Positions 9,139 through 64,000 of a stretch of 64,000 nt of DNA are shown here, piece by piece (the stretch's first letter is position 1; every line of letters starts with the position of its first letter). This stretch comes from Crambe crambe. Lineage: Eukaryota > Porifera > Demospongiae > Poecilosclerida > Crambeidae. The DNA is taken from assembly GCA_963924555.1 (NCBI GenBank), contig OZ004588.1, forward strand, positions 7,041,205 through 7,105,204. The letters run 5' to 3'. A program made the position numbers and the translations under genes. The notes beneath the pieces are model-generated. The model was not told where the DNA came from. It made no database searches and saw only the letters and a program-made list of their open reading frames with translations.

Positions 9139-12156
<3,018 letters not shown>

Positions 12157-24418: not shown

Positions 24419-25202
24419 GTTAATAATGTTTTCTTCCCAGTGGCATATAAACTAGCAATCGGTTTTAGTTGTGAGTAACTTCAACTCTTTCTCGACGGAT
24501 TATAGAACGAATTTTTCCATCAAGTCGAAAGCTTGAAGCGTCAGTTTAATATGTAGCGAAGACTCGCTGTAATATCAAAAGCGATAGCTATCTAACTTAC
24601 TAGTAGACTCTAGTTAGCTACGCCAAATAGAGATCGAAGCAGCAGCAGCAGCAGCAGTAGTAGCCTTATTCGTCTAATTCTCTGCCACAAACTTGCTATA
24701 AATAATCCACTTACCCCACACAAACACGTAAATTATCGATGGGTTATCGTCGAATGGTATTCATATCCTGTGAGAACACCTGCTAAGGAACCCATTTACG
24801 ACAAGTTAACGCCCGATATCCACCCATGTTTCCTTTTGCTTGCACGATTAGGGGCGTGGCTGGGGTTGATTGGAGGCAAGAATGAAGAAGACGAAGTTTC
24901 GTGAAAAATCTCATTTCCCCTTTGAAGGCGTGGCTCATTCGTTAATTGATTAGGAGGCAGGGATGAGGAAGACAACGTTATTTCATTTCTTGTTTATACA
25001 TTCTTTGGCTGTTTGGTGGTTTTTGACGTAAACTAGCCCAACCCACCAGCGAAATTGGAAGTGCTTATTTGTCCAACAAAAGAAAATGCTCAGAGCGCAG
25101 AGACTCCAAATAATCGCTGAGCTGAAGGAGCTAAAAGACTTAGTTCTTAGGAACGAATTTTGGCTGAGTTTGGTGGTCTAAAAGTTTGGTATTTAGAAGA
25201 AG
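24419..25202. promoter_or_regulatory. Divergent intergenic region, neurexin-like (-) and sorting nexin (+)
   Basis: About 780 bases separate the two start codons, which point away from each other. A CAG/TAG triplet run lies at 24641-24664. Two similar phrases, GGGCGTGGCTGG near 24851 and AAGGCGTGGCTCA near 24926, are each followed by GATTGGAGGCA- or GATTAGGAGGCA-like sequence, so part of the region is an imperfect direct repeat. A shared promoter is inferred from orientation only. Confidence 0.4.
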
Positions 25203-29386: not shown

Positions 29387-32300
29387 AGCACCATCTATTC
29401 TACTACCACATGTCCACATCTCACTGCACTTAACTTCTGTTCCAAGACACTGTGTGGAAACCAAACGTTATCTTTCATTAACTGTGAATAAATATAGCTC
29501 TCATGTCCTTCAGAAGTGGCTTGCATTGAGTACCCAACACTTTTAAGTGTGTCACACAAACACTCTCTCAATTAGATTTCACTTGAGGGTGGTAATTCCT
29601 TCAGACACTACTATTTCACCCTTGTCACTGGAGAACCATTGAAGAAGTTGTTACTGGAGAAGCATTAATGAAGAGTTGTCATGAAGTTAGTTACTGTTAC
29701 TGGAGAAGCATTGATTTGAAGTTGTCACTTGATCCCTCGAAAGTTGTCACTGGAGAGCTATTGATTAAAAAAATAACGACCGGCAGCAGTCGTTGGCAAT
29801 TTGTTGAGTTGTCATCAACACCTGTGAGGCTCTGTAAGGTGAGCTCTCAACTTTGAAGCCATCTGGTAGCTGATGGCAATTGGATATAGCCGTTTTGGCA
29901 GCTAAAAATGATACCCTTTCCAAGAGATGGACAGAATACAGTATGGTATGTATGCATGGCTTTTCTAAGGATTGGGATAAAGTTTCGCTGTTCATATTCA
30001 GGGATGCTTCGTTACTCGTGAGATAGCAAAGAACAACAAAAAACCCAAGTTTACCTCAGCACTTCACACTTTGAGGCTTAAACCTCTTCAAAAGGCCACA
30101 ACTCTTGATCTCGTGCTAATAACGTGCTTGATGGATGCCTTTCCTGCAATACAAGCTTAGCAACTCACGCTATTTACTGATGCATTGAAGAGCTCAGAGA
30201 TCTGAGATTTACACACTTCATGTTCTGACAAGGTTTGCTAACCCATACTAGTGGACAATAGTGAATCAGGTGTGGATACGTCATTCAATATTCAGTCAGT
30301 GGTGCAGACTAGTGTTTGACCACAATCTTCTTTCAGTAATATCCAAGACTTCGTAATCTTTACAAAATTAAAATTTGGGAAGGGAGAGTTAGTAATGGAT
30401 GGTTGTTGTTAGTAGCATTTGAAGGGTGTGTGTGCTGTGCTTTTAAGCATTTCATGAAAACATCCCCCCTGATATCAATTCTGTGTCTGACTCTTTAGAG
30501 ATGTTGTGTAAACTTCTCCTTTGAAGCTCAACCATTTGCTTGCATATTGCACTCAAATATAGACAGCCATTCATATACTAAGCAGGTGCAATTGGTATAT
30601 TCGTAATATTGAGCAGTGTGAACAAGTATTGGATCTCGCTGGGGGGACTTTAGGTCACTTGTGTTTGGACGCAAGCACTCAACTGGAGACTAAACGAATA
30701 GGAAAAGGAAATTCGATTCATAACACGCTCTCATTCAAATTCAATGCTTCCTGCCTCTCTCTGGTTCTTTGTTGAGGAACAATGATTGCTTTAGGCTATG
30801 ATTGGAATCATGCATGATATGGATCCCAATGGCTACCTCTTATTTGGACCACCATTATTTTTTTTTCAGATTATAACACTAAAAGTGAGTCTAGGTATCA
30901 TACTGAATGCTTAGATTCACATTTGAGTGTTATTGGTCTTAAATAATTTTTTTGGCCATTTTTCACCAAGTCTGGAAAATTTCAAAAAAAAATAAATATT
31001 TGTGACCGATTGAGGTTTAATAATTATCATTAATATCATAAACAATTTGGCTATTTTCCCCCCTGAATTTCCAAAAAACAACTTTTAAGCTGTTTATCCA
31101 TGCATGGGGCTGGTGAGGGAGCCAGTAATCCCCAGACCTTCATAATTGACTGGTTTCTGCAATGTCCTTAGGGCCTTTGTTTGGAATTCTTCTCATTCCA
31201 ACAAGTGATATTTCCTCGAGGGGGATCATAAAAACCCACTAATATTCATACTCTGAGGCAGTCCACCAGTACTTTAGGGACAATTCACAAATTAATCATT
31301 CATAATAGCCTGGGGCAAGTCACTCATTCATAATAGCCTGATCTGACTAATTACTCTTTCATGATAACCCCGCCCCGGGGCAATTAATATCCAGTGCTTC
31401 TCAAATCCATTGACTAGGGTTGTATTCTGTTGCTATAGTTACGACCAGGCCATCCAAGAAGTCGCTGACAGTGAGGCAAAACGAGAAGTAACAGAAAAGG
31501 AGCTAAGATTTGTGAGTCTGATAAAATTAAGTACTTTTGTATAATTATTAGTTGCAAGAATTCAATTTCATTCCGTTCCAAACCACCTGCCCCGCCCCCT
31601 TAGGCACATGACCAGATCTCATCCATGTGGAAGGAACTAGAAAACATGAGACGGAAACTGGACAGTCCACTGGCAGTAAAGACCACCACAGAACAACCTG
31701 TAAGTGGACAACATGGAGAGTAAACTCAAGTTTCTGATGCTGAGTTATGACAAGCAGTAAAGGCTGATAATGTCATTGACTTGTTATTATGTCCGAGGTC
31801 AATTAGGGGCATCTATTACGTACCCACACACTCAGTTATAAATTAATTATAGCCCAGCTTCCCTAAGTGTCCAACATGACTTATAGCCCAGCTTCCCTAA
31901 GTGTCCAGCATGACTCGACTGTTATTGGTGGGTGTATTGATTCGTCTCCCATTTCATTGCAGCCTTCCAGCACTTGCATAGTCAATGACAGTTCAGTGGT
32001 GCTCCTATGCAGACTATGTCAAGAGAAAATCAAGTGAGGATACCAACTAAGTTAATAAGGGCTGCTAATTAATAGGGGCTGACCATAGTATATAGAAGGA
32101 ATGAAGGCTAATTAATCAATAGGGGCTTACCCATAGTATTTGCTGCATTGGTAATTTAAGCAATTTGATTGGTCAGTCTTCAATTTAACTGGCATCTCCT
32201 CTTTCTTCTTCTTCTTCTTCTTCTTCTACCTCACACTTTAGTGCCCAGCAGGTCAACCCCGCCCCCACCCATCCTTCAGAAGAGAGATACAATAATTCTT

Positions 32301-34014
32301 GTAGCAGACAAAATTCAAAGCAGCAGAGTCCACACAGTCCCAAGCAACAAAATCCACAAAGCAGTCCCAAGCAGAGTCCACACAACAGTCCCAAGCAACA
32401 GAGATCACGAAAAAGCAACTGGCTCTTTGGCAAGAGGCAGCAAAAGTGAGTTATTGCTTAACAATTTCAACAAAAAAGCTGCATTTGAAGTGCAAAAACG
32501 GTTCAACTAACTTGGCACTGCTACATGTTGATGTGATCATAGGCAATGTATGGGCAATGCATGGACATGTGCAGGCAATGCATGGGCATATACCTATTGT
32601 AACATGTCACATGCCATGCATTGCCTATACATGCCCACAAGTAGGCAGTTTAGACGACTTGGGATTATGAAGGCAGTAGTTCTTGAGACCATAAGCATCC
32701 ATTCATCCACACTTTATACTTTGCTGCTAGACAAATCTGACCAATCAAATTACTGACTCATCATAACAACTGATTTGTAATTACCGTATAGTGCAAAATT
32801 TTCGTGGGTCAAAATTTTCGTGGTTTTGCAAATATTCTAGTGTCAAAACCACGAAATTCACGAAATTTTTTACCCACGAAAATATCATATTGCATTGTAA
32901 TAACATCGTGTGTAGTAGATAGAGCAAAGGATTGCATTTGGTTATCTTGTCAACATTTTTTTAGAATTCAAGATGCCGAGTCCCATTCTAAGGTGTGTTC
33001 ATCCAATTCCAGTTCCAATCCCAGTTCCCCGGGCATTTTAACTAAGCAACAAAAGTCATCCAGCAATTCACTAAAGACTGGAACGAGAGTGACTAACTCT
33101 CCCTCAAGAGGAGCACCATCGTCCTCCAAGGGGGGCGGCAAGGGGGCACCGGGGAGGAGGGGTCAGGGGGAGGACTATTTGCAGGTCAACGTGACTCGTA
33201 GTAGCAGCAGTTCTGCCGATATGGCCCCATTCAAAGTAGTGACTAAAGTAAGCACGTAAAGGTAGCGTCTATTCCACTATTCAACATTTGAAACGGCTTA
33301 TGGCTATGATAATGGATCTCGTTTAATGAATATTGAACCTATTGAATTACAAACATTATCCTAACAAGATCCTAACAAGAACTTCAGCCAAACATTTTTA
33401 TTGCTGGAAAACTGCTCCCCAGCATACCTTAAGCAAAGAGGGCTCATTAAAATTTCCTTTAATAGAATGCTGATGACCACAAATACCCTTTGATGTGTGA
33501 AACCACTCCTATTAGGGACATTTAAAAATGCATTTTTCAGATTATAATCTTCTCTTCTTCCTCGATCCTAACAGACCAATCTCCCAATGTTCCCCTCATT
33601 CTCTCTGGAGGTCCATCGTTCACAGGGAGACTTCCAGTGGTTGCACTCTGCCCTCCAGGAGGTGTGTCCAGAGCGCGTGGTCCCACCCCTTCGTCCTCCC
33701 ATCTCCCTGGATGCCACCATCTCGGAATTCCAACGGTTCCTCTCCCGTGTGGCTGCTCACAATGTCCTCTCCAATCAACACCTCTTCATTGTATTCCTCT
33801 CTGGAACTGCTGAGGTCAGCAGAGACTAAGAGTTGCTGTATTGATTAAGAGTTATTATATTGATTAATTGTAGGAATTGCGTGCTCTGAGAGCTAAGCAT
33901 CGACCTCGTCGCCACTCTGACAGGATCAGATACAAACCTGCCATGGGGAGAGACACCAATTCAGGCCCCCTTGTGGATACAAAGGTGAGAGAGAGAGAGA
34001 GGGAGGGAGGGAGG

Positions 34015-34099
<85 letters not shown>

Positions 34100-36760
34100 A
34101 ACTGTGTGTAGCAGGAAATTTCATGGCTATGAAATTGAAATATCTGCCATTCAAAACTGTGAAAAATATTACCTTGTGAAGAAAACCCACTATTGAGTAT
34201 TTAAAAAAAAAACCTTCCCTGCCCCACAATAACACGAAGTTTTACTTCTTCCTCTGCAATGTGCAGGACTACCTGACGATGTTGGAACAGAATTTAGTTG
34301 GTCTCTCTTCACACTTGGAACAGAGCTCGAGAAAGGGGCATGGTTCTCCCATGGAGCGAGCGGCACATTGGTTCCAGGCCATCAGTGATTCCGAGCCTGA
34401 TCACACCTACTTGAAGAGGGCGTCGACTGACCTCGCTCGCACATGTGAAGCCATGGAAAGCCAAGTGGGGGACTCTGATGAAATGCTCTTCATCCAGAAC
34501 CTTCAGAGTCTCACGGACTATGTCAGAGTGGCCCAGGTAATTACAATTGTGCAACAGTTGAGAAGGTCATGTGACCTCTATACTGTCATTATATGACCCT
34601 ATCTCTAAAGGTCACATGACCTATCATGTGACCCTTCTATCCTAATGAATAGGTCTGGTCATATCAATTGACATACCTCTATACTGTCACATGACCTTTC
34701 CATGGGTCTAGTCATGTGACCTCTATTTACTATGCACTTGTTTTAGGATTTGCTGACTCGTGTGGAGGAGGCAGTGGACCAGTATCTGTATTGGGATGAA
34801 GAAGTCACTATCATTGAAGCTGTCAATTCTGTAAGCGCATTATTTTACTGAGGGTAACACTGAATTTACTGAGGGTAACACTGATGAATAAACTGAGGGT
34901 AACACTGATGAATTTACTGGGGGTAACACTGATGAATTTACTGGTAACACTGATGAATTTACTGGGAAGAGTAATTATGCCTGTGATGGCATTATCTGAT
35001 TGTGGTGGACTTTTGCTTCATCATCTCGGGGATAGGATTAGTCAGTAAATTTCATCAGTGAATTCATCGGTGTTACCCTCCCCTTAAATTCATCAATGTT
35101 ACTCTCTCTCTCTCACTGGTCCAGAGTCCCGTGGTTGAACAGCCTCCTGGATCACAGGAGTCTGGGGACAATGACTCTGGAGTCTCCGATGTCACTGGGA
35201 GCACCAGCACTGATAGTACTAGTGGAGACCACACCCATTCTCACAGTCACATGACCATAGGGACAGGATCACACAATACATTGGAGAATAGAACCACCAG
35301 TGAAAGATGGGCACATGTAAGCACCAATAATATAACCCCTCTCTTCTAATGGTGTTTCTAAAGTTGATGACCCATACCAATTATGACCTCTTGATCAGTT
35401 TGACCATAGATATTAGACACGGAACAGGATTGGAAACTTAATACTACCATGCGCGTGCTATCCGTGTTTGCCAGGAAATTTTGGCGCGAGATATGAATGC
35501 ATAGTTACCACATAATAGTTAAGAATGAGTTCTGCAAAAGATATCAGAGCAAATATTAGTCTAGTAGCTTAATATTAGCTGGACTAGAGTGTTTCCATGT
35601 TGTGCTTTTATAAAAATAATAAAATTTAATATGAGACTAGATCTAGCTAGATAGTATAAATCTATGAGAGATTCAGTATCTCAAGTTTTGAAAGATGAAG
35701 AGTTTAGTCTTCCTCTCCAGCCATCTATAGATACCCGTTCTTGTGCAGAGAGCTTTATGGAGTGGATAATAAAACATGATAATGCAAATAAATAATAGAA
35801 ATGTAATAATAATAACTATTTAACCCATAGTTTAACACTGCAATCAAAAAAAAACTAACAGCTATGAATCAATATAACATATATCATCCGATAGACAAAC
35901 TATTATACTACTAAAAGATACCAAACGCTTGACTTCTAAATTTATATGAGTCCTGTTCTAGTCCCACAAATTGGTAGGCCTATAAAATCTTTAGCAACAT
36001 ATCCTACACCAAAAACAGTTATTACACTCTTTATTTCAGTCTATTCCAGTAAGAAACTTTACCTTCCAAACTTCTATAGGATAAAATTGCAAGAAAAACA
36101 CTTGTACTCGTAGCTCTAGTCCCACAAAGTCTGTACCTCTCTTCCTCAGAAAATGTATTGCGACAATAGGGCTAAATTTTCTATGGTTACAACGCGGATA
36201 GCATGCGCGAAATGTATTAGCTTAATGGGAGTGACGTCACATGACGTAGGCAGTTTCCAATCCTGTTCCGTGTCTAATATCTATGGTTTGACCCATACCA
36301 ACTATGACCTCCTAATATAATATGTTTATAAAATTGACGACCTATACCAACTTAATGTGTTTATAAGTTGACCCATACCAATTATGGCCTCTCTCCCCAG
36401 GCAAGCAAACAGTGTGCTGATGCCAAGGACTACCTGGAGATGATGTGTCGTGACTTGGCAGAGGAACTCTCTCTGTTTGATCTCCAAAAGGAGAAGGAGC
36501 TGAAGCAAATCCTCCTTGACTATGCCTCTGCCCAATTGGAGAGACATGAGAAGGTAAAGGGGTGTGGTCAGTGGGAGGAGTTTTTGATAATGTTTGTTCT
36601 TTAGTTTCAGGGGAAATGGTTTGCAATGAGGTTTCTCTTGGACAGTGCCATCTCCATGGAGAACAGAGCCATTCAATTCAATCCTACCCCCACCACTGCA
36701 CCCACGGCCGATGTGTCTCCTGCCCCTCAATCAATACCCACTAACCAACTCACAACATAA
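25203..36760 (+). CDS. PX-BAR sorting nexin with N-terminal coiled coil (complete copy)
   Basis: A probable membrane-remodelling sorting nexin of the endosomal system. Exons 25203-25259, 27246-27340, 31439-31511, 31604-31699, 31963-32033, 32242-32445, 32965-33247, 33575-33814, 33874-33984, 34267-34536, 34747-34830, 35125-35316, 36401-36553, 36605-36760 join in frame to 694 residues. Residues about 15-110 form a coiled coil (LQREKEMLQLSLDEARTQLS). A Gln/Ser-rich linker follows (SPKQ repeats). The PX domain is about 270-375, with VHRSQGDFQWLH and VVPPLRPP standing where PX domains have the (R/Y)xxF-WLH and the Pro-rich loop. A helical region from about 410 to 660 with LEQNLVGLSSHLEQSS and LKQILLDYASAQLERH is BAR-like. 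I cannot name the SNX subfamily. Exons from 31439 on are duplicated at 45594-50885. Confidence 0.82.
25420..25490. repeat. Short direct repeat
   Basis: A unit of about 36 bases (CCCCAAAGGGTGAGGTCTTT followed by AAAATTAAT) occurs twice in tandem in the first sorting nexin intron. Apart from this and the 27-kb minisatellite, I see no feature in intron 25260-27245. Confidence 0.8.
26991..27215. repeat. Minisatellite, GTCCTGTTAGAGCTCACACT type
   Basis: Six or so copies of GTCCTGTTAGAGCTCACACT alternate with GTCCTATTAATAGT blocks, just before sorting nexin exon 27246-27340. Confidence 0.9.
27341..31438. other. 4.1-kb sorting nexin intron, no gene recognised
   Basis: It contains a GGAGGGACGGAGGGGGAGGG tandem repeat (27400-27470), a TCTTTTCTTGTATACTC-rich stretch (27895-28015), a GT run (29206-29240), a CAG/CAA triplet run (29337-29387) and, from about 30880, the interspersed repeat seen also at 15.2 kb. 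The left edge of the large tandem duplication falls in this intron near 30890. I see no coding exon on either strand. Confidence 0.7.
29337..29387. repeat. CAG/CAA trinucleotide run
   Basis: About 17 CAG or CAA triplets. It gives a poly-Gln frame on the plus strand but sits in an intron with no supporting splice sites or conserved flanks, so I read it as a simple repeat. Confidence 0.85.
32783..32898. repeat. Imperfect hairpin repeat in sorting nexin intron
   Basis: GCAAAATTTTCGTGGGTCAA, then CAAAATTTTCGTGGTTTT, is answered downstream by AAAACCACGAAATTCACG and TTTACCCACGAAAATATC, giving a foldback of about 110 bases. The right unit has a shortened version at about 46907-46990. This looks like a small foldback element. 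Confidence 0.75.
33986..34096. repeat. (GA)n / GGGA low-complexity tract
   Basis: A GAGA run with GGGAGGGAGG interruptions lies directly behind sorting nexin exon 33874-33984, at its 5' splice site. The right unit has the same at about 48101-48214 with a different number of repeats. Confidence 0.9.
34847..35100. repeat. 24-base tandem repeat with inverted partner
   Basis: Four to five copies of GAATTTACTGAGGGTAACAC plus TGAT are followed about 80 bases later by inverted versions (ATTCATCGGTGTTACCCTCC). The right unit has extra units (48960-49230), so copy number changed after the duplication. Confidence 0.85.
35404..36286. mobile_element. Non-autonomous DNA transposon with 35-base TIRs, left copy
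   Basis: The ends are CCATAGATATTAGACACGGA continuing to ...GGATTGGAAACT at 35404-35438 and the exact reverse complement at 36252-36286. The 883-base element is flanked by the direct repeat TTTGA (35399-35403 and 36287-36291), a five-base target-site duplication. No open frame inside suggests a transposase. It lies in the sorting nexin intron 35317-36400. A CRE-like TGACGTCA occurs near its right end. Confidence 0.88.
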
Positions 36761-36799
36761 CTGCTGATTCATAATTATAATAATTTATATTCAGGGTCA

Positions 36800-37083
36800 C
36801 GTATATGCGCGCGCGCATGCAGCTGAAAGCCGGAACTGCGCATGTGCAGTAATTCATATAGGGTGTGTCAGAAAAAAACGGGCCCCTTTGGCTGAAACCT
36901 AGTCTCGGCCCAGACTAGCTGAAACCATAGGAAATTCGAGTGCCGTAAGGTAAGAGCCGTGCTTCTGTAGATAAGAGTAATTCTTTAAATACATAGGGTG
37001 CGTTGCAGTATGTTAGAATTGTTATATACCAACTTTTTTGAATCCCGCCCCTTCGCACACTGTCATTGATTTTAATTTGATAG
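36800..37083 (+). promoter_or_regulatory. Putative promoter and 5' non-coding exon of Roco gene 1
   Basis: Between the sorting nexin stop (36760) and the first Roco coding exon lies an alternating GCGCGCGCATGC stretch (about 36808-36821) and a TGCGCATGTGCAG motif resembling an NRF1 site (about 36838-36850). A possible donor GTGCCGTAAG|GTAAGAGCC at about 36950 and the acceptor TAG at 37081-37083 suggest a 5' non-coding exon. The same arrangement is present at 50930-51212. Transcription start is not visible. Confidence 0.4.
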
Positions 37084-37093
37084 GGTAGGGAGG

Positions 37094-40000
37094 ATGATCA
37101 GATCTGAACTGGTGGAGCTGTGGAAGTGTCGGGTCCAGTACCTGAGGCAATATTATTGTTTCCATGACCACAGACCTAAGCAGAGAGGCTACCCCATCCT
37201 TTCCCCTCACGTCTGGTTCATCCCTTGCATTTTGACGCTATGGTGGACAATAATGGCAGTTATCTTTTTATTTGCTCTCAAACTGGAACATTTATTGAAC
37301 ACTGGTAAGAATTACCTCAAAATTATGTTGCATATAATATGTGCTGTTTCTGGCCTGCCAGTAACATTGTAGTCTGGCGGTGCCGACCCTTTACCTCCTT
37401 TTTCTTGGGGGTGGGGGAGGGAAAGGGTCTGGTAACTCTAGCATATACATATATATGAGTTGTGTCATTACATCACAGATTACATCACCACAAATATTTT
37501 CGCGCACATAATATGCAATTGATGGGTAGGGCTTACCGCTCACTATGGCTGATGTTGGTCAGTGTGTTTAGAGACAGGAGACATAGATGACTGAAGAGCA
37601 AGTTTGTGGAGAGCATAGCAGCCAAGGAGCTAGAGAAGAAGGGAGAGAGTCTGGATCTTGAGGCTGTTCTCAGAATAATTATCCCTGCTACAGCCTGTAA
37701 CTATTCAGGCTTTATTCAGTCGAATCTAAATGCTTCTAGAAGTGCTCATCATATCATGCACAGGGGAACTGTGGTCACTAGGTAGCTGTTTTGCCATCGC
37801 TACACTACAGTCTACAGCTAACCATGCCAGGAAGCACGCGGGTAATTAAGAAGAGCACATGCACCAATTTCTAGCAATCTGATTGGGCTGCCGTCCTGGC
37901 AGCGTTGACACAACTCGAATATGCTAGAGTTACCAGACCCTTTCCCTCTCCCCACCCCCAAGAAAAAGGGGGCCAGACTAGTAACATTGTAAAAATGAGT
38001 AGTTACTAGCAATAGAGAATTGCCACTTATTTTTTTCATGCCTTGGATTTATGTAGTTAAGGATATTCATTTAAATGGATTTCTAATTTTTCAGGTGATG
38101 TAATGAATGTCCCCAACTTCATCTCTCTTGGTTTAAACTGCATTCTGATGGTATCATGGTGGAAGCTTGCAATAAATCAGTCTGATGGAATGACCAAACC
38201 TTCTCCATCGAATGGCAAATACTGTAACACTTGCAAAGATGTGCTTTCATCTCTAAGGCAAAACTGGAAGTATTTTCAGAGAAGGGGACTTAGCTGTAGT
38301 GTCCATCACTTTGATTATCTAATGGTCACACTGTTGTTATTGATGTTAGCTGGTGACGTTGAAACCAACCCTGGTCCAGGTGAGGGTCATAGTTCAGTCT
38401 ACTAGCTAGGACCATAATTTTATTTCAAAAATCTACATAGGCAGTGGATGTAAATGTAGGGGTTGGTTTGATATGAGGCTGCAGTAGTGCTTGGCTTATC
38501 TAAGCTGCCTGGTTTGAACCACATGGTCTGACAGCAAATATCTAATCCTAATGAGTTACATGCACACAATGAGTTTGAGCCTATCAGCTGCTTGAATGTT
38601 GCACATTGCCCTAGTATATTATATTATTATACATAATGTTTGTTTATTAGTTTGTTGTTTTTGCTGTTGTTTTTGATAGCATATGAATATATGACAAATT
38701 TCATGATTTGATAATTGTATTATCTGTGTCTTGATAGATTATTTAACAATGGATGACCACTATGCAGTCACTAAAGAATTGAGTTACTTGGATAATCAAG
38801 AACTGATAAGATTGGGTACGGCACTAGGATTGTTGTATCCACACCTAAAAAGGATGATGAACCTTCCAGGAGACATGGTTGATTCATGGTTGAGGAAGGA
38901 TGATAACGTCCTTAATAAATCTGGACCTCCCACTTGGGCCAGTTTAGCTAAAGCTCTAGAGGCTATTGATCACACAGGGATTGCCGCCATGATCAGGAAA
39001 AAAGGTAATCACTTGTAGTGATAGTACTTAGCAGGGTTCTCCCCAGTGAAACTGATCAGAGCAGTGCTTGAATACCACATTAAAGGATTTTGATATTCTT
39101 ATGGCTACATTGTTTTAACCACGTAAAAGAAGAATGGGCCCCATCAGAGTGGTGTTGCACCTCTCTAACACCCTTTGGGGAGAACCCTGCTTAGTTGTTA
39201 GAATTTATGCTTTCAACCTACAGGGTACATTAAGGAATTGGATTGGTGGTGGGTGTAGGACACATAACACAGCCCAGCTAGATTTTAGGCCAACCTGTGC
39301 TCACTTGTGACTATGTTCTTGCTGCCCCAGTGCTTTCCAAGGCAATTGTTGACTATGTATTCAGCCTCTGGTCCTGTATTATGGTGATGATATCATGGAT
39401 TAAAATCATGCACACGTACACGTAGATATGGATGTGCCTCAGCCTTTGGTGCTGGGGGGAAGTAGATAATTATTCGATAGTAAAATTTTCGAGAGCTAGA
39501 ATAAATTTTCCCTCATTGGAATTAACTTGCTCTATCATATTTTATAGTGGATTATTCAGCGGATTATAAGGAAGCATTGCAGAGGGGTAAAGTTATAGTG
39601 GCTTATGCACGTGTTGTGCTCCTTGGTGCTGGAGGATCAGGCAAGAGCAGTTTCCAGCGTGGAATGAAGAATGAGCTCTTCAAAGAACTTGACAGCACTC
39701 AATTGGCTGATATCAATGCTATGAAACTAAGGGCCGTTAGTACAACTACAGCAAAGGGAGAAGGAGGGTATTGGGTGTCAGTCGATGAAAACGATGAAAA
39801 GAATGAATTAGTCGGGTTGGTACGGCTTGTATTCAATGTGCGCAGTGGGAAAGTCGAGTCAACACGTGTAGTAGAAGAAAGTGAAAGAAGTGAAGAAATT
39901 AATGTTGATACAGTAAATCCTGTTTCTGCTGAACCCGCTCATTCTGAATCTCCTACTTATTCTGCTGTAAGACAATCTGTTAAGAAGATTATAGATGAGA

Positions 40001-42393
40001 TCATTGAATTAGCCAAGAAGGATCCAACAGCCCAAGCACCTGAATCCGAGGTGTATCTGAATGTGTGGGATTGTGGTGGCCAGCAAGTCTTTCTCAACAT
40101 TCTACCAGCCTTTCTAACATCAAAATCTATATTCTTTCTTATATTTGATGCTCGAAATGATCTACATAAACCATGCATATCCCTATCCCATGGCCAAAGT
40201 CAGGTTATACTGAAAGAAGAACTGAATATGAGTACAATGGAGCTCTTATCGCAATGGATGTCTCACATTGATGCCACAAATCTTAGAGGTGATAGATCTG
40301 AGATTCCCGAGTATCCTCGTATTGTGCTGGCTGGTACCCATGGAGATGATCCTAATGTGGAAAAGAACAAAGCCAGTATCCGTAAGAAACTACGTGATGG
40401 GTACAGTAATAGCACTTATGCTGACTTGGTCAAGGATGCAGTGATCATTGACAACACAACATCAGGGACAGAGAATGCAGATCCTGGATACAAGAAAGCA
40501 CTAGATATTGTGTATCGTTTCACTTCCAACGATAAAGTGATGAAGGATACACCTGTCACGTGGGTTCTATTCAGAAGGATGTTGCATTTAGAAGCAAAGA
40601 AAAAGCCTTACTTTGAACTCACAGAAGTTGAAGAAATAGCCGATGCCTGTGACATCAAGCAAGACAAAGTTCACAGTGTCTTGAAGTTTTACCACGACCT
40701 TGCTGTATTCTTCCATTATGATGATGTTACCAATTTAAAGGACTGGGTCATAGCTGACCCTAAGAAGTTCATAGAAGATCTAGCTAAGCTTCTAGCTTTG
40801 AAAGGCTTTGAAGAAGAAAAAGATAATAGCCTGATACCTCTATGGGACCATCTCAGAAATAAAGGAATTTTAGTTCAAAAACTGTACGATGTAATTTGGA
40901 AATCCGACCAACTCCAACCTGAGGACATAATTGCCTTGTTGGAGAAATTTCTTATTGTGTCCCCTATAAAGACAGAGTACAAAGTGAAAGCCGGCGAGGG
41001 TAAAGAATACTTCGTTCCTTGCGTACTTCCTCCTTCTCCCACCACACAAGACAGTGCTCGTACTCTCAGATCCTGTAAGAAGCAAGCTGCCTCATTACAT
41101 TTGATATTTAGAAGTGTTGGGTATGTAGCCCCAGGTTTCTTCACCCGACTTGCTACGGCTCTCTCTAAGAAAGAAGGCTATGAGATAGTCTTTAATGGCA
41201 TATACAGGAATAAAGTATCTTTTTTATGTGAACTGTCAGGTTCCGAGATAGATAAACTCACAATTTCTGAAGGTAAATATTCTGTGCAAATTAATTTGAT
41301 GCGAAAGACACCACGAACAAGTAGTCTCCAAATATTCTCAAATGTGTGTCTGGAAGTTAAAAAATCTATCGAGGAATGCTGTACAGATATCTGTAAATGG
41401 TTCCCAGGCATCAAGACATCATTTGCTTTCTGCTGTGATCAGTGCAGTGCTAGTTCTCATGAGCACTTTGTTTGCCTAAAGCCAGAAACCACCCGTGAGT
41501 CAATCTTACATTGCCAAGAAGAAAAGGAAAGGGTCTATAAATTTAAAGAGGACGAGAAGAACTGGTTACAATTTAAAGAGGTAAATTCCGCATAGTATTT
41601 ACGTATTAATTATACATGGCAAATGTGTACACGATCCTTTAGTCTCATGGTTCCACTGATCCAATATCAGTTCCTGAGATTAATGGTGTTGCCAAGGAGT
41701 TTCAGAACAATCCTCGAAAATTGGCTGACTTTAAAGATGCCTCAGAGATAGCAACACAAGTTCCAGGTCCAGCAGCACTTATTAAACGCTGGATCAAAGA
41801 GATGGAATGGATTGGAGTCCCTCCTCGTCCTCACCTCATCCACCACCTTGAGTGCATTGACATGCATGAAGTGGCAGAAAAGTAATAGCTAGATACATAC
41901 TTTCTCTCAGGCTGATAATTTATTCCTCTTATTTACTTGTAGGATCAAGTATTTTGAATTTGAATCTCCATCACACACCAGCAGTGCAGTAAGTTTGAGT
42001 CGTTCTATTTTCATAATTAGCTAACATGTTTTGTTTGTTTGTTTGCAGAGACCCGAGCAAAGTGGTAATATTTTGAAAACTGTATTATCTTTAGTTAATG
42101 TGTGTTGCATGATAGATCCTTCACAGGTTTTAATGGATGACCACCATGTAGTCACTCAAGAATTGAATGACTTGAATAATGAACAACTAATGAAAGTGGG
42201 TGGGGCACTAGGATTATACCATCCACACCTAGAAAGGATGAAGAACCTTCTACCAGACATGGTTGCTTCATGGTTGAGGAAGGATGATAATGTCAGTCAA
42301 CCTCCCACCTGGGCCAGTTTAGCTACAGCTCTGAAGGCTGTTGGTCACACAGGGGTCGCCTCTGGAATCAGGAAAAGTAATACTTGTAGCTAG
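37094..42393 (+). CDS. Roco gene 1: 2A leader - death domain - Roc GTPase - COR - death domain
   Basis: Exons 37094-37304, 38095-38379, 38738-39004, 39548-41580, 41643-41881, 41943-41988, 42049-42064 (16 bases), 42116-42393 join in frame to 1124 residues. A hydrophobic leader (helices about 41-63, 79-96, 144-156) ends in a 2A-like motif at residues 157-165. A death domain follows (about 170-250), then Roc GTPase: P-loop GAGGSGKSS at about 281-289, switch II WDCGGQQ, and GTHGD near the base-recognition position. The COR domain follows (TPVTWVLFRRMLHLE, FYHDLAVFFHYDD, DWVIADPKKFI). The last exon is a second death domain. Roco proteins are regulatory GTPases; death domains recruit partners in cell-death or immune signalling. 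No LRR, kinase or ankyrin repeats are seen. Separation of leader and GTPase is inferred from the motif. Confidence 0.85.
37371..37979. mobile_element. Mutator-like non-autonomous element with 11-base target duplication, left copy
   Basis: The element begins AGTCTGGC and ends GCCAGACT; longer subterminal inverted sequence (CTTTTTCTTGGGGGTGGGGG and its complement, then GGGTCTGGTAACTCTAGCATAT) pairs the two ends. The flanks AGTAACATTGT (37360-37370 and 37980-37990) form an 11-base target-site duplication, a length typical of Mutator-like elements. In the third leader copy (about 44433-44443) the target occurs once with no element. No transposase frame is visible. Confidence 0.85.
38352..38378 (+). 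other. 2A-like ribosome-skipping motif GDVETNPGP (Roco gene 1)
   Basis: Nine codons read GDVETNPGP, a full match to the 2A core D(V/I)ExNPGP. The preceding segment is LMVTLLLLMLA, hydrophobic and probably helical, as is usual upstream of 2A cores. The exon ends one base after the last proline codon (donor at 38380), and the next exon starts the death domain, so the predicted break lies exactly at the border between leader and signalling protein. 2A sequences make the ribosome skip the last Gly-Pro bond. Confidence 0.85.
38738..39004 (+). CDS. Death-domain exon 1 of Roco gene 1
   Basis: A phase 1-1 exon giving DYLTMDDHYAVTKELSYLD through GPPTWASLAKALEAIDHTG. Six-helix death-fold features are the LGTALGL segment and the PTWASLxxAL segment with conserved Trp. 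It is only about 60% identical to its counterpart at 54382-54633 by eye. Confidence 0.85.
39548..41580 (+). CDS. Roc-COR exon of Roco gene 1
   Basis: One 2033-base exon holds the whole GTPase and COR region. G1 GAGGSGKSS, G3 WDCGGQQ and a G4-like GTHGD are present; the canonical NKxD is replaced by THGD, common in Roco GTPases. About 130 residues between G1 and G3 include a long Ser/Glu-rich insertion (RVVEESERSEEINVDTVN). A Cys-rich segment (FCCDQCSASSHEHFVC) lies near the end. The Roco gene 2 exon is nearly identical. Confidence 0.9.
42116..42393 (+). CDS. C-terminal death-domain exon of Roco gene 1
   Basis: Begins in phase 1 (DPSQVLMDDHHVVTQELND) and ends RKSNTCS-stop. The last codons contain AAAA|GTAATAC, the donor position used in the other death-domain exons, here read through to a stop. 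This suggests the exon arose by copying the internal one. Confidence 0.82.
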
Positions 42394-42679: not shown

Positions 42680-43428
42680 TCATAGGTCACAAACACTAGG
42701 TAACTTAATGTGAAAATAAGGGTGGTTCAGACAGTGCAGTGCCGATATTCTCTTACATGGTTCATACTCCAACATTTTCTGCACAGAAATAATTGCATAT
42801 AACTACAGTGGAATCTCTGAAGAGGACAACCTCTTGACAGTATGTTTCTAAATAACTTCCAACCTCTCTAACACAAAGGACAAAAGGCTGGGCCCCAAGT
42901 GTGTCCATTATTCAGAGGGTTTCAGTGTACATGTAGGCACATGTGGTGTCTTCTCAACCATTTCTACATTTAATTTCATAAACACATACCTCCAATAGAT
43001 CCACACCATCATGGTCCACCTCTTTCATGGTATTTTGTAGTTTCTGACGGGGCCAGTTGGGAAATGTTGATTTATAGTCTGGCAGACTTGTTACACCTGG
43101 CCACAGGTTGTCGTTGGGGGTACCTAGTGTCCTGGGTTTGGGGCCATGGGAAAAATTATTACAGCAAAGAACGAAGAGTGCAGTGGGTCAAGAGAACTCT
43201 CACCTAAATATTCTGAAGAGCTGATCTATTTCAGAGTCTCCAGGAAAGAGAGGACATCTATTCAACCGAAAGCAACAAATGCACAAATATCACATTTAGT
43301 AACCAGTACATATCTGAAGTAAGACTCACCATTTCAGAGAAGATGCAGCCTATACTCCAGACATCCACAGAAGTGGAGTAATACTGGGAACCCAGCAGTT
43401 CAGGAGAACTGTACCACAGTGTCACCAC
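42680..43428 (-). pseudogene. 3' fragment of the PSTAIRE CDK gene
   Basis: Copies of the last four CDK exons lie here, with the coding start of the first at 43428 and the stop at 42680-42682, matching 61807-62546. Splice sites and reading frame look intact, but everything upstream is missing: no N lobe, no PSTAIRE helix, no catalytic HRDLKPQN. Changes include loss of one codon in the [11 protein letters not shown] segment, Arg to Ser before SPEL, and a three-base deletion near the C terminus. It is the truncated inner copy of the tandem duplication. Confidence 0.88.
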
Positions 43429-43452
43429 CTGAGGTGAAGAGAAATTTGGAAC

Positions 43453-44169
43453 ACAAAGGTTGTATCAAGGTTAGTGCCATCTCCATTCACCCACAGCTGA
43501 TACATCTCCTATACCCCATAGTAGCAATCTATATATATGGCTTCATTCACTCAGAGTCACATGATGGCATACAGTTTGCTTGATACTGCCACCGAGGTCA
43601 CATGGACCAATCAGATTTGCAGGCAATGATGTCAGCATGAATCTGATTGGTCCATGTGACTTTGCTGGCTGAAGTACTAGTATAGTACAGCGGTTTTTCC
43701 AAAACCTTGCAACTTAACAGGAAAGTGGAAAGCGGAAGTGATTGGAGCCAACTGGTTGGTCAGATTGCTCATATTGATCATGTGACTGGCTTTTGCAGTT
43801 GCAAGATTTTGGAAAACCGCTGTACAGTGTCAAGCAATCCATGGATCCATGATCGATCCACTGTATGTATGTGCACGTGCGCGCATGGCGCATGTGAACA
43901 GGCAGCGCTCGCTGACATGTAAGTGTTGGCGAAAAAGGTGTCCGTGCTCGAAAGACTATCGTACAAGAGTAATACTGTATCATAAGGTAGCATTGCTTTG
44001 TAATTCTCAGGGCAGTGATCTGTAGAGATCGTGTCATACACGGACTAATCTGACCCTTTCCCTCCCCCCGCCCCCAAGAAAAAGGAGGTAAAGGGTCGGC
44101 TACCTTTGGACCCCAAAATAGTGATGGGAAATTTGTTTGCACACTGTTCAGTTACTCATTGTTTTATAG
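43453..44169. other. Spacer at the duplication junction, with two hairpins
   Basis: Unmatched by the flanking units. It contains one inverted repeat of 21-base arms (43597-43617 and 43640-43660, GTCACATGGACCAATCAGAT) and another (43685-43713 with 43797-43825, GTACAGCGGTTTTTCCAAAA). A C/G-rich hairpin at about 44050-44100 resembles the ends of the Mutator-like element (CCCGCCCCCAAGAAAAAGGA). No gene is seen. Confidence 0.7.
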
Positions 44170-44834
44170 GATTGGGAGAATGATCAGATCTGAACTGGTG
44201 GAGCTGTGGAAGTGTCGGGTCCAGTACCTGAGGCAATATTATTGCTTCCATGACCACAGACCAAAGCAGAGAGGCTACCCACCACATCTGGTTCATCCCT
44301 TGCATTTTAACACTATGGTGGACAATGATGGCAGTTATCTTTTTATTTGCTCTCAAATTGGAACATTTATTGAAATACTGGTAAGAATTAGCTCAAAATT
44401 ATTTTGCATAATATGTGCTGTTTCTGGCCTGTCAGTAACATTGTAGTACAATTTCAAAAATGAAAAAAGTGAGTAGTTACAAGCAATAGAGAATTGCCAC
44501 TGCTATTTTTTTCATGCCTTGGATTTATGTAGCTAAGGATATTCATTTAAATGGATTTCTAATTTTTCAGGTGATGTAATGAATGTTCCCAACTTCATCT
44601 CTCTTGGTTTAAACTGCATTCTGATGGTATCATGGTGGAAGCTTGCAATAAATCAGTCTGATGGAATGACCAAACCTTCTCCATCAAATGGCCAATACTG
44701 TGACCTAAGGCAAAACTGGAAGTATATTCAGAGAAGAGGACTTAGCTGTATTGTCCATCACTTTGATTATCTAATGGTCACACTGTTATTGATATTAGCT
44801 GGTGACGTTGAAACTAATCTTGGTCCTGGTCAAG
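44170..44834 (+). pseudogene. Orphan third copy of the Roco leader exons, 2A motif broken
   Basis: Two exons (44170 to about 44385; 44571-44834) correspond to the leader exons of the Roco genes. Exon 1 starts MIRSELVELWKCRVQYLRQY but has a net 10-base loss, so its frame shifts and the first hydrophobic helix is lost. The second exon has a 27-base in-frame deletion, and its 2A position (44801-44827) has Leu where the first proline of NPGP should be. No death domain or GTPase exon follows before the sorting nexin copy. It is more diverged than copies 1 and 2 are from each other and lacks the Mutator-like element in its intron. Confidence 0.82.
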
Positions 44835-45593: not shown

Positions 45594-48145
45594 GCCATCC
45601 AAGAAGTCACTGACAATGAGGCAAAACGAGAAGTAACAGAAAAGGAGCTAAGATTTGTGAGTCTGATAAAATTAAGACATCTTGTACTTTCGTATAATTA
45701 TTAGTTGCAAGAATTCAATTTCCATTCCGTTCTAAAACCACCTGCCTCGCCCCCTTAGGCACATGACCAGATCTCATCCATTTGGAAGGAACTAGAAAAC
45801 ATGAGACGGAAACTGGACAGTCCGGCAGTAAAGACCACCACAGAACAACCTGTAAGTCAACGACATAGAGAGTATACTCAAGTTTCTGATGCTGAGTTAT
45901 GACAAGCAGTAACGCTGATAATGTCATTGACTTGTTATTATGTCCAAGGTTAATTAGGGGCATCCATTAATTAATAATACATACCCACACACTCAGTTAT
46001 AAATTAATTATAGCCCAGCTTCCCTAAGTGTCCAACATTCCAGCACTTGTATAGTCAATGACAGTTCAGTGGTGCTCCTCTGCAGACTATGTCAAGAGAA
46101 AATCAAGTGAGGATACCAACTAAGTTAATAAGGGCTGCTAATTAATAGGGGCTGACCATAGTATATAGAAGGAATGAAGGCTAATTAATCAATAGGGGCT
46201 TACCCATAGTATTTGCTGCATTGGTAATTCAAGCAATTTGATTGGTCAGTCTTCAATTTAACTGGCATCTCCTCTTTCTTCTTCTTCTTCTTCTACCTCA
46301 CACTTTAGTGCCCAGCAGGTCAACCCCGCCCCCACCCACCCTTCAGAAGAGAGATACAATAATTCTTGTAGCAGACAAAATTCAAAGCAGCAGAGTCCAC
46401 ACAGTCCCAAGCAACAAAATCCACAAAGCAGTCCCAAGCAGAGTCCACACAACAGTCCCAAGCAACAGAGATCACGAAAAAGCAACTGGCTCTTTGGCAA
46501 GAGGCAGCAAAAGTGAGTTATTGCTTAACAATTTCAACAAAAAAGCTGCATTTGAAGTGCAAAAACGGTTCAACATAGAGTGGAGTCTTAACTTGGCACT
46601 GCTACATGTTGATGTGATCATAGGCAATGTATGGGCAATGCATGGACATGTGCAGGCAATGCATGGGCATGCATGGGCATATACCTATTGTAACATGTCA
46701 CATGCCATGCATTTGCCTTGTAACATGTCACATGCCATGCATTGCCTATACATGCCCACAAGTAGGCAGTTTAGACGACTTGGGATTATGAAAGGCAGTA
46801 GTTCTTGAGACCATAAGCATCCATTCATCCACACTTTATACTTTGCTGCTAGACAAATCTGACCAATCAAATTACTGACATCATCATAACTGATTTGTAA
46901 TTACCGTATAGTGCAAAATTTTCGTGGGTCAAAATTTTCGTGGTTTTACAAATATGAAATCCACGAAAAATTTTACCCACGAAAATATCATATTGCATTG
47001 TAATAACATCGTGTGTAGTAGATAGAGCAAAGGATTGCATTTGGTTATCTTGTCAACATTTTTTTAGAATTCAAGATGCCGAGTCCCATTCTAAGGTGTG
47101 TTCATCCAATTCCAGTTCCAATCCCAGTTCCCCGGGCATTTTAACTAAGCAACAAAAGTCATCCAGCAATTCACTAAAGACTGGAACAAGAGTGACCAAC
47201 TCCCCCTCAATAGGAGCACCATCGTCCTCCAAGGGGGGCGGCAAGGGGGCACCAGGGAGGAGGGGTCAGGGGGAGGACTATTTACAGGTCAACGTGACTC
47301 GTAGTAGCAGCAGTTCTGCCGATATGGCCCCATTCAAAGTAGTGACTAAAGTAAGTACGTAAAGGTAGCGTCTATTCCACTATTCAACATTTGAAACGGC
47401 TTATGGCTATGATAATGGATCTCGTTTAATGAATATTGAACCTATTGAATCACAAACAATATCCTAACAGGATCCTAACAAGACCTTCAGCCAAACATTT
47501 TTATTGCTGAAAAACTGCTCCCCAGCATACCTTAAGCAAAGAGGGCTCATTAAAATTTCCTTTAATAGAATGCTGATGACCACAAATACCCTTTGATGTG
47601 TGAAACCACTCCTATTAGGGACATTTAAAAATGCATTTTTCAGATTATAATCTTCTCTTCTTCCTCGATCCTAACAGACCAATCTCCCAATGTTCCCCTC
47701 ATTCTCTCTGGAGGTCCATCGTTCGCAGGGAGACTTCCAGTGGTTGCACTCTGCCCTCCAGGAGGTGTGTCCAGAGCGCGTGGTCCCACCCCTTCGTCCC
47801 CCCATCTCCCTGGATGCCACCATCTCGGAATTCCAACGGTTCCTCTCCCGTGTGGCTGCTCACAATGTCCTCTCCAATCAACACCTCTTCATTGTATTCC
47901 TCTCTGGAACTGCTGAGGTCAGCAGAGACTAAGAGTTGCTGTAAAGAGTTGCTGTATTGATTAAGAGTTATTATATTGATTAATTGTAGGAGTTGCGTGC
48001 TCTGAGAGCTAAGCATCGACCTCGTCGCCACTCTGACAGGATCAGATACAAACCTGCCATGGGGAGAGACACCAATTCAGGCCCCCTTGTGGATACAAAG
48101 GTGAGAGAGAGAGAGAGAGGGAGGGGAGGGAGGGAGGGAGGGAGG

Positions 48146-48218
<73 letters not shown>

Positions 48219-50885
48219 TGTGTGTAGCAGGAAATTTCATGGCTATGAAATTGAAATATCTGCCATTCAAAACTGTGAAAAATATTACCTTGTGAAGAAA
48301 ACCCACTATTGAGTATTTAAAAAAGAAACCTTCCCTGCCCCACAATAACACGAAGTTTTACTTCTTCCTCTGCAATGTGCAGGACTACCTGACGATGTTG
48401 GAACAGAATTTAGTTGGTCTCTCTTCACACTTGGAACAGAGCTCGAGAAAGGGGCATGGTTCTCCCATGGAGCGAGCGGCACATTGGTTCCAGGCCATCA
48501 GTGATTCCGAGCCTGATCACACCTACTTGAAGAGGGCGTCAACTGACCTCGCTCGCACATGTGAAGCCATGGAAAGCCAAGTGGGGGACTCTGATGAAAT
48601 GCTCTTCATCCAGAACCTTCAGAGTCTCACGGACTATGTCAGAGTGGCCCAGGTAATTACAATTGTGCAACAGTTGAGAAGGTCATGTGACCTCTATACG
48701 ACCCTATCTCTAAAGGTCACATGACCTATCATGTGACCCTTCTATCCTAATGAATAGGTCTGGTCATATCAATTGACATACCTCTATACTGTCACATGAC
48801 CTTTCCATGGGTCTAGTCATGTGACCTCTATTTACTATGCACTTGTTTTAGGATTTGCTGACTCGTGTGGAGGAGGCAGTGGACCAGTATCTGTATTGGG
48901 ATGAAGAAGTCACTATCATTGAAGCTGTCAATTCTGTAAGCGCATTATTTTACTGAGGGTAACACTGAATTTACTGAGGGTAACACTGATGAATTTACTG
49001 AGGGTAACACTGATGAATTTACTGGGGGTAACACTGATGAATTTACTGGTAACACTGATGAATTTACTGGTAACACTGATGAATTTACTGGGAAGAGTAA
49101 TTATGCCTGTGATGGCATTATCTGATTGTGTTGGACTTTTGCTTCATCATCTCGGGGATAGGATTAGTCAGTAAATTTCATCAGTAAATTCATCGGTGTT
49201 ACCCTCCCCTTAAATTCATCAATGTTACTCTCTCTCTCTCACTGGTCCAGAGTCCCGTGGTTGAACAACCTCCTGGATCACAGGAGTCTGGGGACAATGA
49301 CTCTGGAGTCTCCGATGTCACTGGCAGCACCAGCACTGATAGTACTAGTGGAGACCACACCCATTCTCACAGTCACATGACCATAGGGACAGGATCACAC
49401 AATACATTGGAGAATAGAACCACCAGTGAAAGATGGGCACATGTAAGCACCAATAATATAACCCCTCTCTTCTAATGGTGTTTCTAAAGTTGATGACCCA
49501 TACCAATTATGACCTCTTGATCAGTTTGACCATAGATATTAGACACGGAACAGGATTGGAAACTTAATACTACCATGCGCGTGCTATCCGTGTTTGCCAG
49601 GAAATTTTGGCGCGAGATATGAATGCATAGTTACCACATAATAGTTAAGAATGAGTTCTGCAAAAGATATCAGAGCGAATATTAGTTTAGTAGCTTAATA
49701 TTAGCTGGACTAGAGTGTTTCCATGTTGTGCTTTTATAAAAATAATAAAATTTAACATGAGACTAGATCTAGCTAGATAGTATAAATCTATGAGAGATTC
49801 GTATCTCAAGTTTTGAAAGATGAAGAGTTTAGTCTTCCTCTCCAGCCATCTATAGATGCCCGTTCTTGTGCAGAGAGCTTTATGGAGTGGATAATAAAAC
49901 ATGATAATGCAAATAAATAATAGAAATGTAATAATAATAACTATTTAACCCATAGTTTAACACTGCAATCAAAAAAAAACTAACAGCTATGAATCAATAT
50001 AACATATATCATCCGATAGACAAACTATTATACTACTAAAAGATACCAAACGCTTGACTTCTAAATTTATATGAGTCCTGTTCTAGTCCCACAAATTGGT
50101 AGGCCTATAAAATCTTTAGCAACATATCCTACACCAAAAACAGTTATTACACTCTTGATTTCAGTCTATTCCAGTAAGAAACTTTACCTTCCAAACTTCT
50201 ATAGGATAAAATTGCAAGAAAAACACTTGTACTCGTAGCTCTAGTCCCACAAAGTCTGTACCTCTCTTCCTCAGAAAATGTATTGCGACAATAGGGCTAA
50301 ATTTTCTATGGTTACAACGCGGATAGCACGCGCGAAATGTATTAGCTTAATGGGAGTGACGTCACATGACGTAGGCAGTTTCCAATCCTGTTCCGTGTCT
50401 AATATCTATGGTTTGACCCATACCAACTATGGCCTCCTAATATAATATGTTTATAAAATTGACGACCTATACCAACTTAATGTGTTTATAAGTTGACCCA
50501 TACCAATTATGGCCTCTCTCCCCAGGCAAGCAAACAGTGTGCTGATGCCAAGGACTACCTGGAGATGATGTGTCGTGACTTGGCAGAGGAACTCTCTCTG
50601 TTTGATCTCCAAAAGGAGAAGGAGCTGAAGCAAATCCTCCTTGACTATGCCTCTGCCCAATTGGAGAGACATGAGAAGGTAAAGGGGTGTGGTCAGTGGG
50701 AGGAGTTTTTGATAATGTTTGTTCTTTAGTTTCAGGGGAAATGGTTTGCAATGAGGTTTCTCTTGGACAGTGCCATCTCCATGGAGAACAGAGCCATTCA
50801 ATTCAATCCTACCCCCACCACTGCACCCACGGCCGATGTGTCTCCTGCCCCTCAATCAATACCCACTAACCAACTCACAACATAA
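45594..50885 (+). pseudogene. 5'-truncated sorting nexin copy (PX-BAR exons 3-14)
   Basis: Exons matching 31439-36760 follow in order, with open frames and most splice sites kept. The two first exons with the start codon (25203, 27246) have no counterpart. The copy of exon 5 has lost its 3' splice site: sequence reads GTCCAACATTCCAGCACTTG where the left copy has about 90 further bases including TTTCATTGCAG. Using the new CCAG as acceptor would give a frameshift and early stop. A three-base in-frame deletion in exon 4 is also present. The high identity suggests recent duplication or gene conversion. Confidence 0.82.
49530..50411. mobile_element. Non-autonomous DNA transposon with 35-base TIRs, right copy
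   Basis: Same element as at 35404-36286, with the same ends and TTTGA flanks at 49525-49529 and 50412-50416. It is shared by both units, so insertion came before the tandem duplication. Only a few substitutions and single-base indels differ. Confidence 0.88.
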
Positions 50886-51222
50886 CTGCTGATTCATAAT
50901 TATAATAATTTATATTCAGGGACCAGGGTCACGTATATGCGCGCGCATGCAGCTGAAAGCCGGAACTGCGCATGTGCAGTAATTCATATAGGGTGTGTCA
51001 GAAAAAACGGGCCCCTTTGGCTGAAACCTAGTCTCGGCCCAGACTAGCTGAAACCGTAGGAAATTCGAGTGCCGTAAGGTAAGAGCCGTGCTTCTGTAGA
51101 TAAGAGTAATTCTTTAAATACATAGGGTGCGTTGCAGTATGTTAGAATTGTTATATACCAACTTTTTTGAATCCCGCCCCTTCGCACACTGTCATTGATT
51201 TTAATTTGATAGGGTAGGGAGG

Positions 51223-61806: not shown

Positions 61807-64000
<2,194 letters not shown>

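Follow-up and report, generated by a model that had tools for sequence, protein, structure and literature searches.

The closest described system is the 2A signal of sea urchin NLR proteins, for which the published account gives ∼80% skipping in vitro with a cytosolic free product (Roulston 2016, PMC4981915) and, for a core mutant unable to skip, transfer of the fused form to the Golgi (PMC4981915). This precedent bears out a statement in a first-pass annotation of the DNA studied here, that 2A-like leaders occur on some animal proteins of the innate-immune type. In a second study, the residues 28–48 positions before the skip site, which occupy the ribosome-translocon junction, were able to suppress skipping when the upstream protein entered the ER (De Felipe 2010, PMC2978324). 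In principle, the two papers support both a free and a tethered outcome (PMC4981915, PMC2978324). The StopGo/2A core itself has been defined as (D/G/C/N)(V/I)ExNPGP, with a leucine-rich stretch that ends in (A/S/C)G before the D (PMC12846837).

Here, a 64,000-nucleotide stretch of genomic DNA from the sponge Crambe crambe, referred to throughout as the window, was analyzed. Our best reading of the window gene, and one that we consider probable, is that a working 2A element stands between a membrane leader and a Roco protein and splits them during translation; the core, its upstream context and the splice frame all fit, as does the conservation seen across 70 exon-1 loci.

Results

The features of the window gene, designated copy A, are as follows.

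37094–37304, + strand: exon 1, with the start ATG, the N-terminus and the predicted first membrane helix (leader residues 1–70); GT donor, open frame
38095–38379, + strand: exon 2, with the predicted second helix, a basic loop, a leucine-rich stretch and the 2A core; AG/GT bounds, in frame
38355–38378, + strand: StopGo/2A core DVETNPGP, with a G just before it; from sequence and translation
38738–39004, + strand: exon 3, death-domain-like exon DD1, directly after the last Pro codon, with an in-frame ATG as its fifth codon; in-frame join
39548–41580, + strand: exon 4, Roc GTPase and COR; Pfam COR-A E = 1e-12 and Roc E = 1.6e-8, both above the curated cut-offs
41643–41881, + strand: exon 5, a linker without a Pfam family; in-frame model and Pfam scan
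41943–41988, + strand: exon 6, a short linker exon, one of two in-frame choices; in-frame model
42127–42393, + strand: exon 7, encoding the second death-domain-like copy, DD2, up to the stop codon; in-frame model with stop, 61% identical to DD1

The first-pass annotation had described a leader of 164 residues with three hydrophobic segments and the terminus GDVETNPGP. The two exons and the motif stand, but the leader has 165 residues when the final Pro is included (164 in the released leader, with GDVETNPGP as the C-terminal end of the full 165), and only two of the segments are helix-like. Kyte-Doolittle means calculated over a 19-residue window reach 2.28 for residues 42–60 and 1.62 for residues 79–97, and both stretches resemble membrane helices. 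The third hydrophobic segment (residues 138–156, mean of 1.55) merges into the core and appears better read as the leucine-rich part of the 2A element itself. The core falls within the published definition (PMC12846837), and the LLMLAG that precedes its D fits, by eye, the leucine-rich class ending in (A/S/C)G. The numbers of basic and acidic residues in the leader are 7/3 for residues 1–39, 1/2 for residues 63–78 and 7/2 for residues 98–142. Because basic residues flank the helices, the positive-inside rule predicts a cytosolic location for both leader ends. The stretch 28–48 residues before the skip site reads CKDVLSSLRQNWKYFQRRGLS and carries 5 basic residues and 1 acidic residue; it includes the NWK..RR part of the leader, whose N, W and two R residues recur in 12 or 13 of the 13 copies compared.

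The earlier observation that exon 2 ends one base past the last Pro codon was correct: this codon ends at 38378, and a single G at 38379 is followed by a GT donor. The exon 2/exon 3 junction reads ...NPGP-DYLTMDDHY, and in the predicted spliced model the reading frame stays open past the last Pro to the stop at 42393, giving a product of 1115 residues, of which 951 follow the skip site, with GT-AG boundaries for all introns. The gene order in this one open frame is leader, 2A, DD1, Roc-COR, linker and DD2. The Roc match (35.2 bits, cut-off 27) precedes the COR-A match (48.6 bits, cut-off 35.3), as the Roc-then-COR arrangement of a Roco protein has it, and the P-loop GAGGSGKS is present in the Roc-COR frame. 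The exon structure between 41881 and 42127 is provisional because two in-frame variants fit, the alternative being a 16-base exon at 42049–42064 in place of 41943–41988.

The next exon had also been said to begin a death domain in frame. The in-frame join was upheld; the death-domain label fared less well, in that a Pfam scan of the window exons for a death domain gave no match at E ≤ 1. A Death match at E = 0.085 was obtained in one of six scanned copies. When a DD1 profile was compared with solved structures, the best match was a proteasome subunit (0.005), and a single-sequence search of solved structures with DD1 did not establish the death fold. Alignment of the DD1 profile with two Pfam-supported Death exons (loci L012 and L010, see below) returned an hhalign probability of 3.7%. 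Sequence evidence of this kind lends weak support to exon 3 as a death domain.

Two further copies of the leader are present in the window.

44180–44827, + strand: copy B, a decayed leader only, with exon 1 in two pieces in different frames and the core DVETNLGP (44804–44827); from sequence
51223–51433, + strand: copy C exon 1, identical in protein to that of copy A; exon-1 search
52202–52486, + strand: copy C exon 2, with the core DIETNPGP; from sequence
54357–54647, + strand: copy C DD1 open frame; open frame and similarity
56916–59078, + strand: copy C Roc-COR open frame; Pfam COR-A 8.6e-12, Roc 1.1e-8
61218–61529, + strand: copy C DD2 open frame, with the C-terminal IRKSNTCS and stop as in copy A; open frame and similarity

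The sole change in the core of copy C relative to copy A is V to I, an allowed one; in copy B, exon 1 is broken and the NPGP of the core is lost (NLGP). The duplicated flanks are ∼95% identical in DNA (31965–38583 versus 46038–52677 and 39538–41623 versus 56937–59010), and the DD1 exon between them (38676–39021 versus 54328–54650) shows 77% DNA and 60% protein identity, as if this exon had been exchanged or were diversifying faster than the duplicated flanks. An upstream gene at 36356–36604, with a weak Vps5 match under the cut-off, has a copy near 50481–50729 and was duplicated along with the leader. On the minus strand, a protein kinase exon (Pkinase 5e-19) lies at 62518–62796, and a shorter frame that is related to it by eye lies at 43258–43464 in the other copy of the duplicated unit. 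Elsewhere in the window, a very long (CT)n/(AG)n run of ∼400 bases occupies 10716–11127 and Laminin-G frames occupy 12530–14685 and 23627–24451 on the minus strand, the former adjoining a frame with a mucin-like match under the cut-off and, as judged by eye, one hydrophobic segment.

Exon 1, chosen as a genome query independently of the motif, returned 71 rows, which correspond to 70 loci, the broken exon 1 of copy B accounting for two rows. An intact own core was found within 20 kb at 67 of these 70 loci: 66 of the 71 rows have their own core at this distance, and C11:2600385 adds DVEINPGP at C11:2598758. The three loci lacking an intact core within 20 kb are copy B (NLGP), C8:1019684, which is a fragment of 29 residues, and C1:4959773, for which the search yielded no core. 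Exon 1 of copy A is 62–81% identical to 8 relatives, and a pN/pS of 0.27 was calculated for this exon from 10 sequences, the window's two included. For exon 2, pN/pS was 0.04 in the core and 0.53 in the remainder, values that are biased because the loci were picked by motif.

These loci bear on the alternative that the leader is a plain membrane anchor, with a motif that is poorly active in its long transmembrane context and a tethered Roco protein as the main product. A 2A element that is active in vitro can be blocked in vivo by engagement with the ER (PMC2978324), and sponges are reported to have NLRs with transmembrane architectures (PMC12909245). However, an anchor would leave unexplained both the intact core at 67 of 70 exon-1 loci and the recurrence of one core after leaders of several kinds (see below), and we regard this alternative as unlikely.

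To place the core in its genomic context, the genome to which the window belongs (143 Mb, 119 contigs) was searched for DNA coding D(V/I)ExNPGP. A total of 207 core-coding sites was found and all were placed, 167 being DVExNPGP and 40 DIExNPGP. Chance was rejected as the origin of the motif, because ∼0.12 sites were expected from the window base composition and reversed-pattern controls in the same 143-Mb genome gave 0 sites. Sites within one base of the DVExNPGP pattern numbered 226 (control, 3) and comprise, by subtraction, 167 exact sites, 40 of the DIE form and 19 others. The 207 sites are not independent, since they group in 61 clusters at gaps of up to 100 kb, the largest containing 23 cores. 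The first-pass annotation, which treated the motif as a feature of a single gene, was right about the window site, but this site is one of 207 in the genome.

Beyond the window, 33 of the 207 sites were read (25 at 10 kb and eight at 3 kb, on contigs C1, C3, C5 and C21) together with the two intact window copies; the largest arrays (C9, C10 and C8) lie outside this 33-site reading. Six kinds of leader were distinguished by eye among the 33 sites: the window type (10 sites), a C1 type (nine), a C5 type (eight), a C1/C3 type (three), a C21 type (two) and the single leader of L010. Among leaders of the other kinds, L002, L008 and L014 resemble the window leader, but weakly and over the last 42–53 residues only; therefore, the leader kinds may not all be unrelated. 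The run L001–L009 (C1:3.55–3.99 Mb) consists of nine tandem DVELNPGP cores with one leader kind.

Except where a join is given below (L012 and L010), "downstream" at loci other than the window gene means close to the core on its own strand. Death, death-like, Roc/COR, NACHT or Ig sequences lie downstream of at least 14 of the 33 sites (L009, L010, L012–L014, L016–L018, L027 and L029–L033), several of these matches being weak. Within the window type, L016, L017, L018 and L033 are similar to the window Roco protein (tblastn, 1.2e-7 to 6.8e-20), with Roc or COR-A matches under the Pfam cut-offs in L016, L018 and L033. Death-like exons lie downstream in L027, L030 and L033, a weak Death match (0.0098) in L016, and I-set, NACHT and LRR in L029. 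In the C1/C3 type, Death matches were obtained for L012 (1.1e-4, 22.6 bits, exactly at the cut-off) and, under the cut-off, for L013 and L014 (2.1e-4 and 4.5e-4). L010 has a Death match above the cut-off (1.1e-5, 25.9 bits). The C21 type is followed by Ig in L031 and L032 and by NACHT-LRR in L032. L009, of the C1 type, has an Ig_3 match of 29.7 bits against a cut-off of 30; at this locus the 2A core precedes an apparent extracellular domain. For the C5 type (eight of the 33 sites), no immune-type domain was recognized downstream in singly scanned frames, and L015 of this type has a TAZ zinc finger downstream.

A Pfam scan at E ≤ 0.001 of 106 sense-strand downstream frames (≥100 residues, from 28 of the 33 loci) gave Ig_3 in 10, Death in nine, Roc in four, NACHT in two and COR-A in one. 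The same frames speak to the idea that the motif is left over from a non-LTR retrotransposon or a virus and no longer has a function. Although 2A elements are known in non-LTR retrotransposons (PMC4981915, PMC11512398), a retrotransposon or viral Pfam family was found in 0 of the 106 frames at this threshold, eight loci being covered by 1.5 kb downstream only. The introns in the gene and the tandem arrays of cores likewise argue against a relic, which we find barely credible.

A clear phase-1 GTRAG donor was present ∼30 codons or fewer after the core at 9 of 17 loci examined, which were picked from the 33; a second, phase-2 GTRAG match in L011 was left out of this count. The other eight loci (four C5-type loci, the two C21-type loci, L001 and L018) have at best weaker GT sites, some of them in phase 1 by eye, and L031 and L032 would reach a stop six codons past the core if unspliced. 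The in-frame join of leader to downstream exon is thus shown only for the window gene, for L012, where an in-phase join was computed, and for L010, where it was traced by eye.

These joins are relevant to a further alternative, in which alternative or separate transcripts carry the leader exons and most Roco protein is made from the ATG of exon 3. An ATG near the DD1 start is found in copies A and C, and in copy A it has A at −3 and G at +4. Against this, the homologous death-domain-like exons of L027 and L030 lack this ATG, although the L030 exon is perhaps not the first after the core, and the leader joined in frame in all three genes checked. Production mainly from exon 3 is, in our judgment, distinctly improbable.

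The families concerned are very large in this genome, with 232 NACHT candidates (103 scored), 339 COR-A candidates (150 scored) and 335 DD1-like exon candidates (150 scored). A death-like exon from the best 150 of 335 candidates lies within 4 kb of a core, among 204 cores, in 20 cases downstream on the same strand, in two upstream and in 0 on the other strand, an asymmetry that is informative for linkage within the candidates scored. In the C9 array of 23 cores, nine sit 63–571 bases ahead of a death-like exon, among the matches listed. For the best 103 of 232 NACHT exons, a core lies within 8 kb upstream of five and downstream of one (six versus five within 25 kb); for the best 150 of 339 COR exons, the corresponding numbers are six and nine (25 versus 25 within 25 kb), and there is therefore no excess of upstream cores for COR. 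The neighborhood of NACHT and COR exons was accordingly dropped as proof of linkage, the NACHT excess being only slight (five versus one at 8 kb). Most NACHT and COR exons on these lists are without a nearby core, and 2A leaders therefore mark at most a subset of these genes. At C21:1.29–1.64 Mb, at least 15 NACHT exons lie on one strand, among the matches listed, with only three 2A cores between them; leaders may have been gained or lost within this array.

Discussion

The first-pass annotation proposed that one mRNA yields a membrane peptide and a free Roco protein or, when skipping fails, a membrane-tethered one, which would set the ratio of the two receptor forms. The motif, frame, splice signals, Roc-COR region and recurrence are all found in the sequence; the two products themselves we infer, together with transcription of the gene, the occurrence and efficiency of skipping, the topology of the leader in the membrane, a tethered form, a set ratio and an immune role. 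With a working 2A element, the whole gene would be translated as one open frame, leader first. The two helices of the leader would probably engage the ER and dock the ribosome there, with both leader ends on the cytosolic face if the positive-inside rule holds. When the 2A core reached the center of the ribosome, the Gly-Pro bond would mostly be skipped and a 164-residue membrane peptide freed. The ribosome would then continue, releasing a free cytosolic Roco protein with proline as its first residue. Where skipping failed, a fraction of the Roco protein would stay tethered to the leader on the cytosolic side of the membrane.

Should this hold, some gene models for a "transmembrane NLR" or "transmembrane Roco" may in fact represent two proteins, and it becomes testable whether failed skipping serves animals as a way of putting receptors on membranes. 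This genome would offer a natural system for cellular 2A, since its 207 core sites form tandem arrays and a good share of the sites read are receptor-like. A wider proposal, speculative and in our view doubtful, is that 2A leaders act as one common layer across part of the immune-type intracellular repertoire of this animal. Distinct families of leaders would then have been placed repeatedly before Death, Roco and NLR genes, ER engagement or translation state would set the tethered/free ratio for many receptors, and NWK..RR would be the tuning part.

With the 2A elements of non-LTR retrotransposons, the window gene shares a 2A core in an animal genome; no reverse transcriptase or endonuclease was found downstream, where Roc-COR lies instead, nor in any of the 106 frames elsewhere. 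Such retrotransposon 2A elements are reportedly the subject of a 2013 study by Odon. With the leucine-rich class of viral StopGo/2A (PMC12846837), the gene has in common the core octapeptide and a leucine-rich stretch ending in (A/S/C)G. Unlike the viral elements, the window core belongs to an animal gene with introns and closes an exon whose donor is in phase 1. Roc and COR-A matches above curated cut-offs are shared with Roco proteins, from which the gene differs in having death-domain-like exons at both ends and a leader that is predicted to come off. As far as our searches reach, three features are new in the literature searched, namely a long leader spread over two exons, a Roco protein as the target and the scale; Rao 2025 (Cell Rep., on eukaryotic and viral 2A) may already list such genes.

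The nearest parallel is with the 2A signals of sea urchin NLR proteins, which are likewise N-terminal and hydrophobic, carry D(V/I)ExNPGP, precede an immune-type protein and have two fates (PMC4981915). By contrast with the 26-residue sea urchin signal, the window leader has 165 residues encoded by two exons. The former was reported in 14 of 87 NLR entries, whereas 207 core sites with several leader kinds are present here. The downstream protein is a NACHT-type NLR in the sea urchin and Roc-COR in the window gene, although at two other loci, L029 and L032, the core does have NACHT-LRR frames behind it. Finally, the fused sea urchin form enters the exocytic pathway, whereas hydropathy and charge predict that the window form would face the cytosol.
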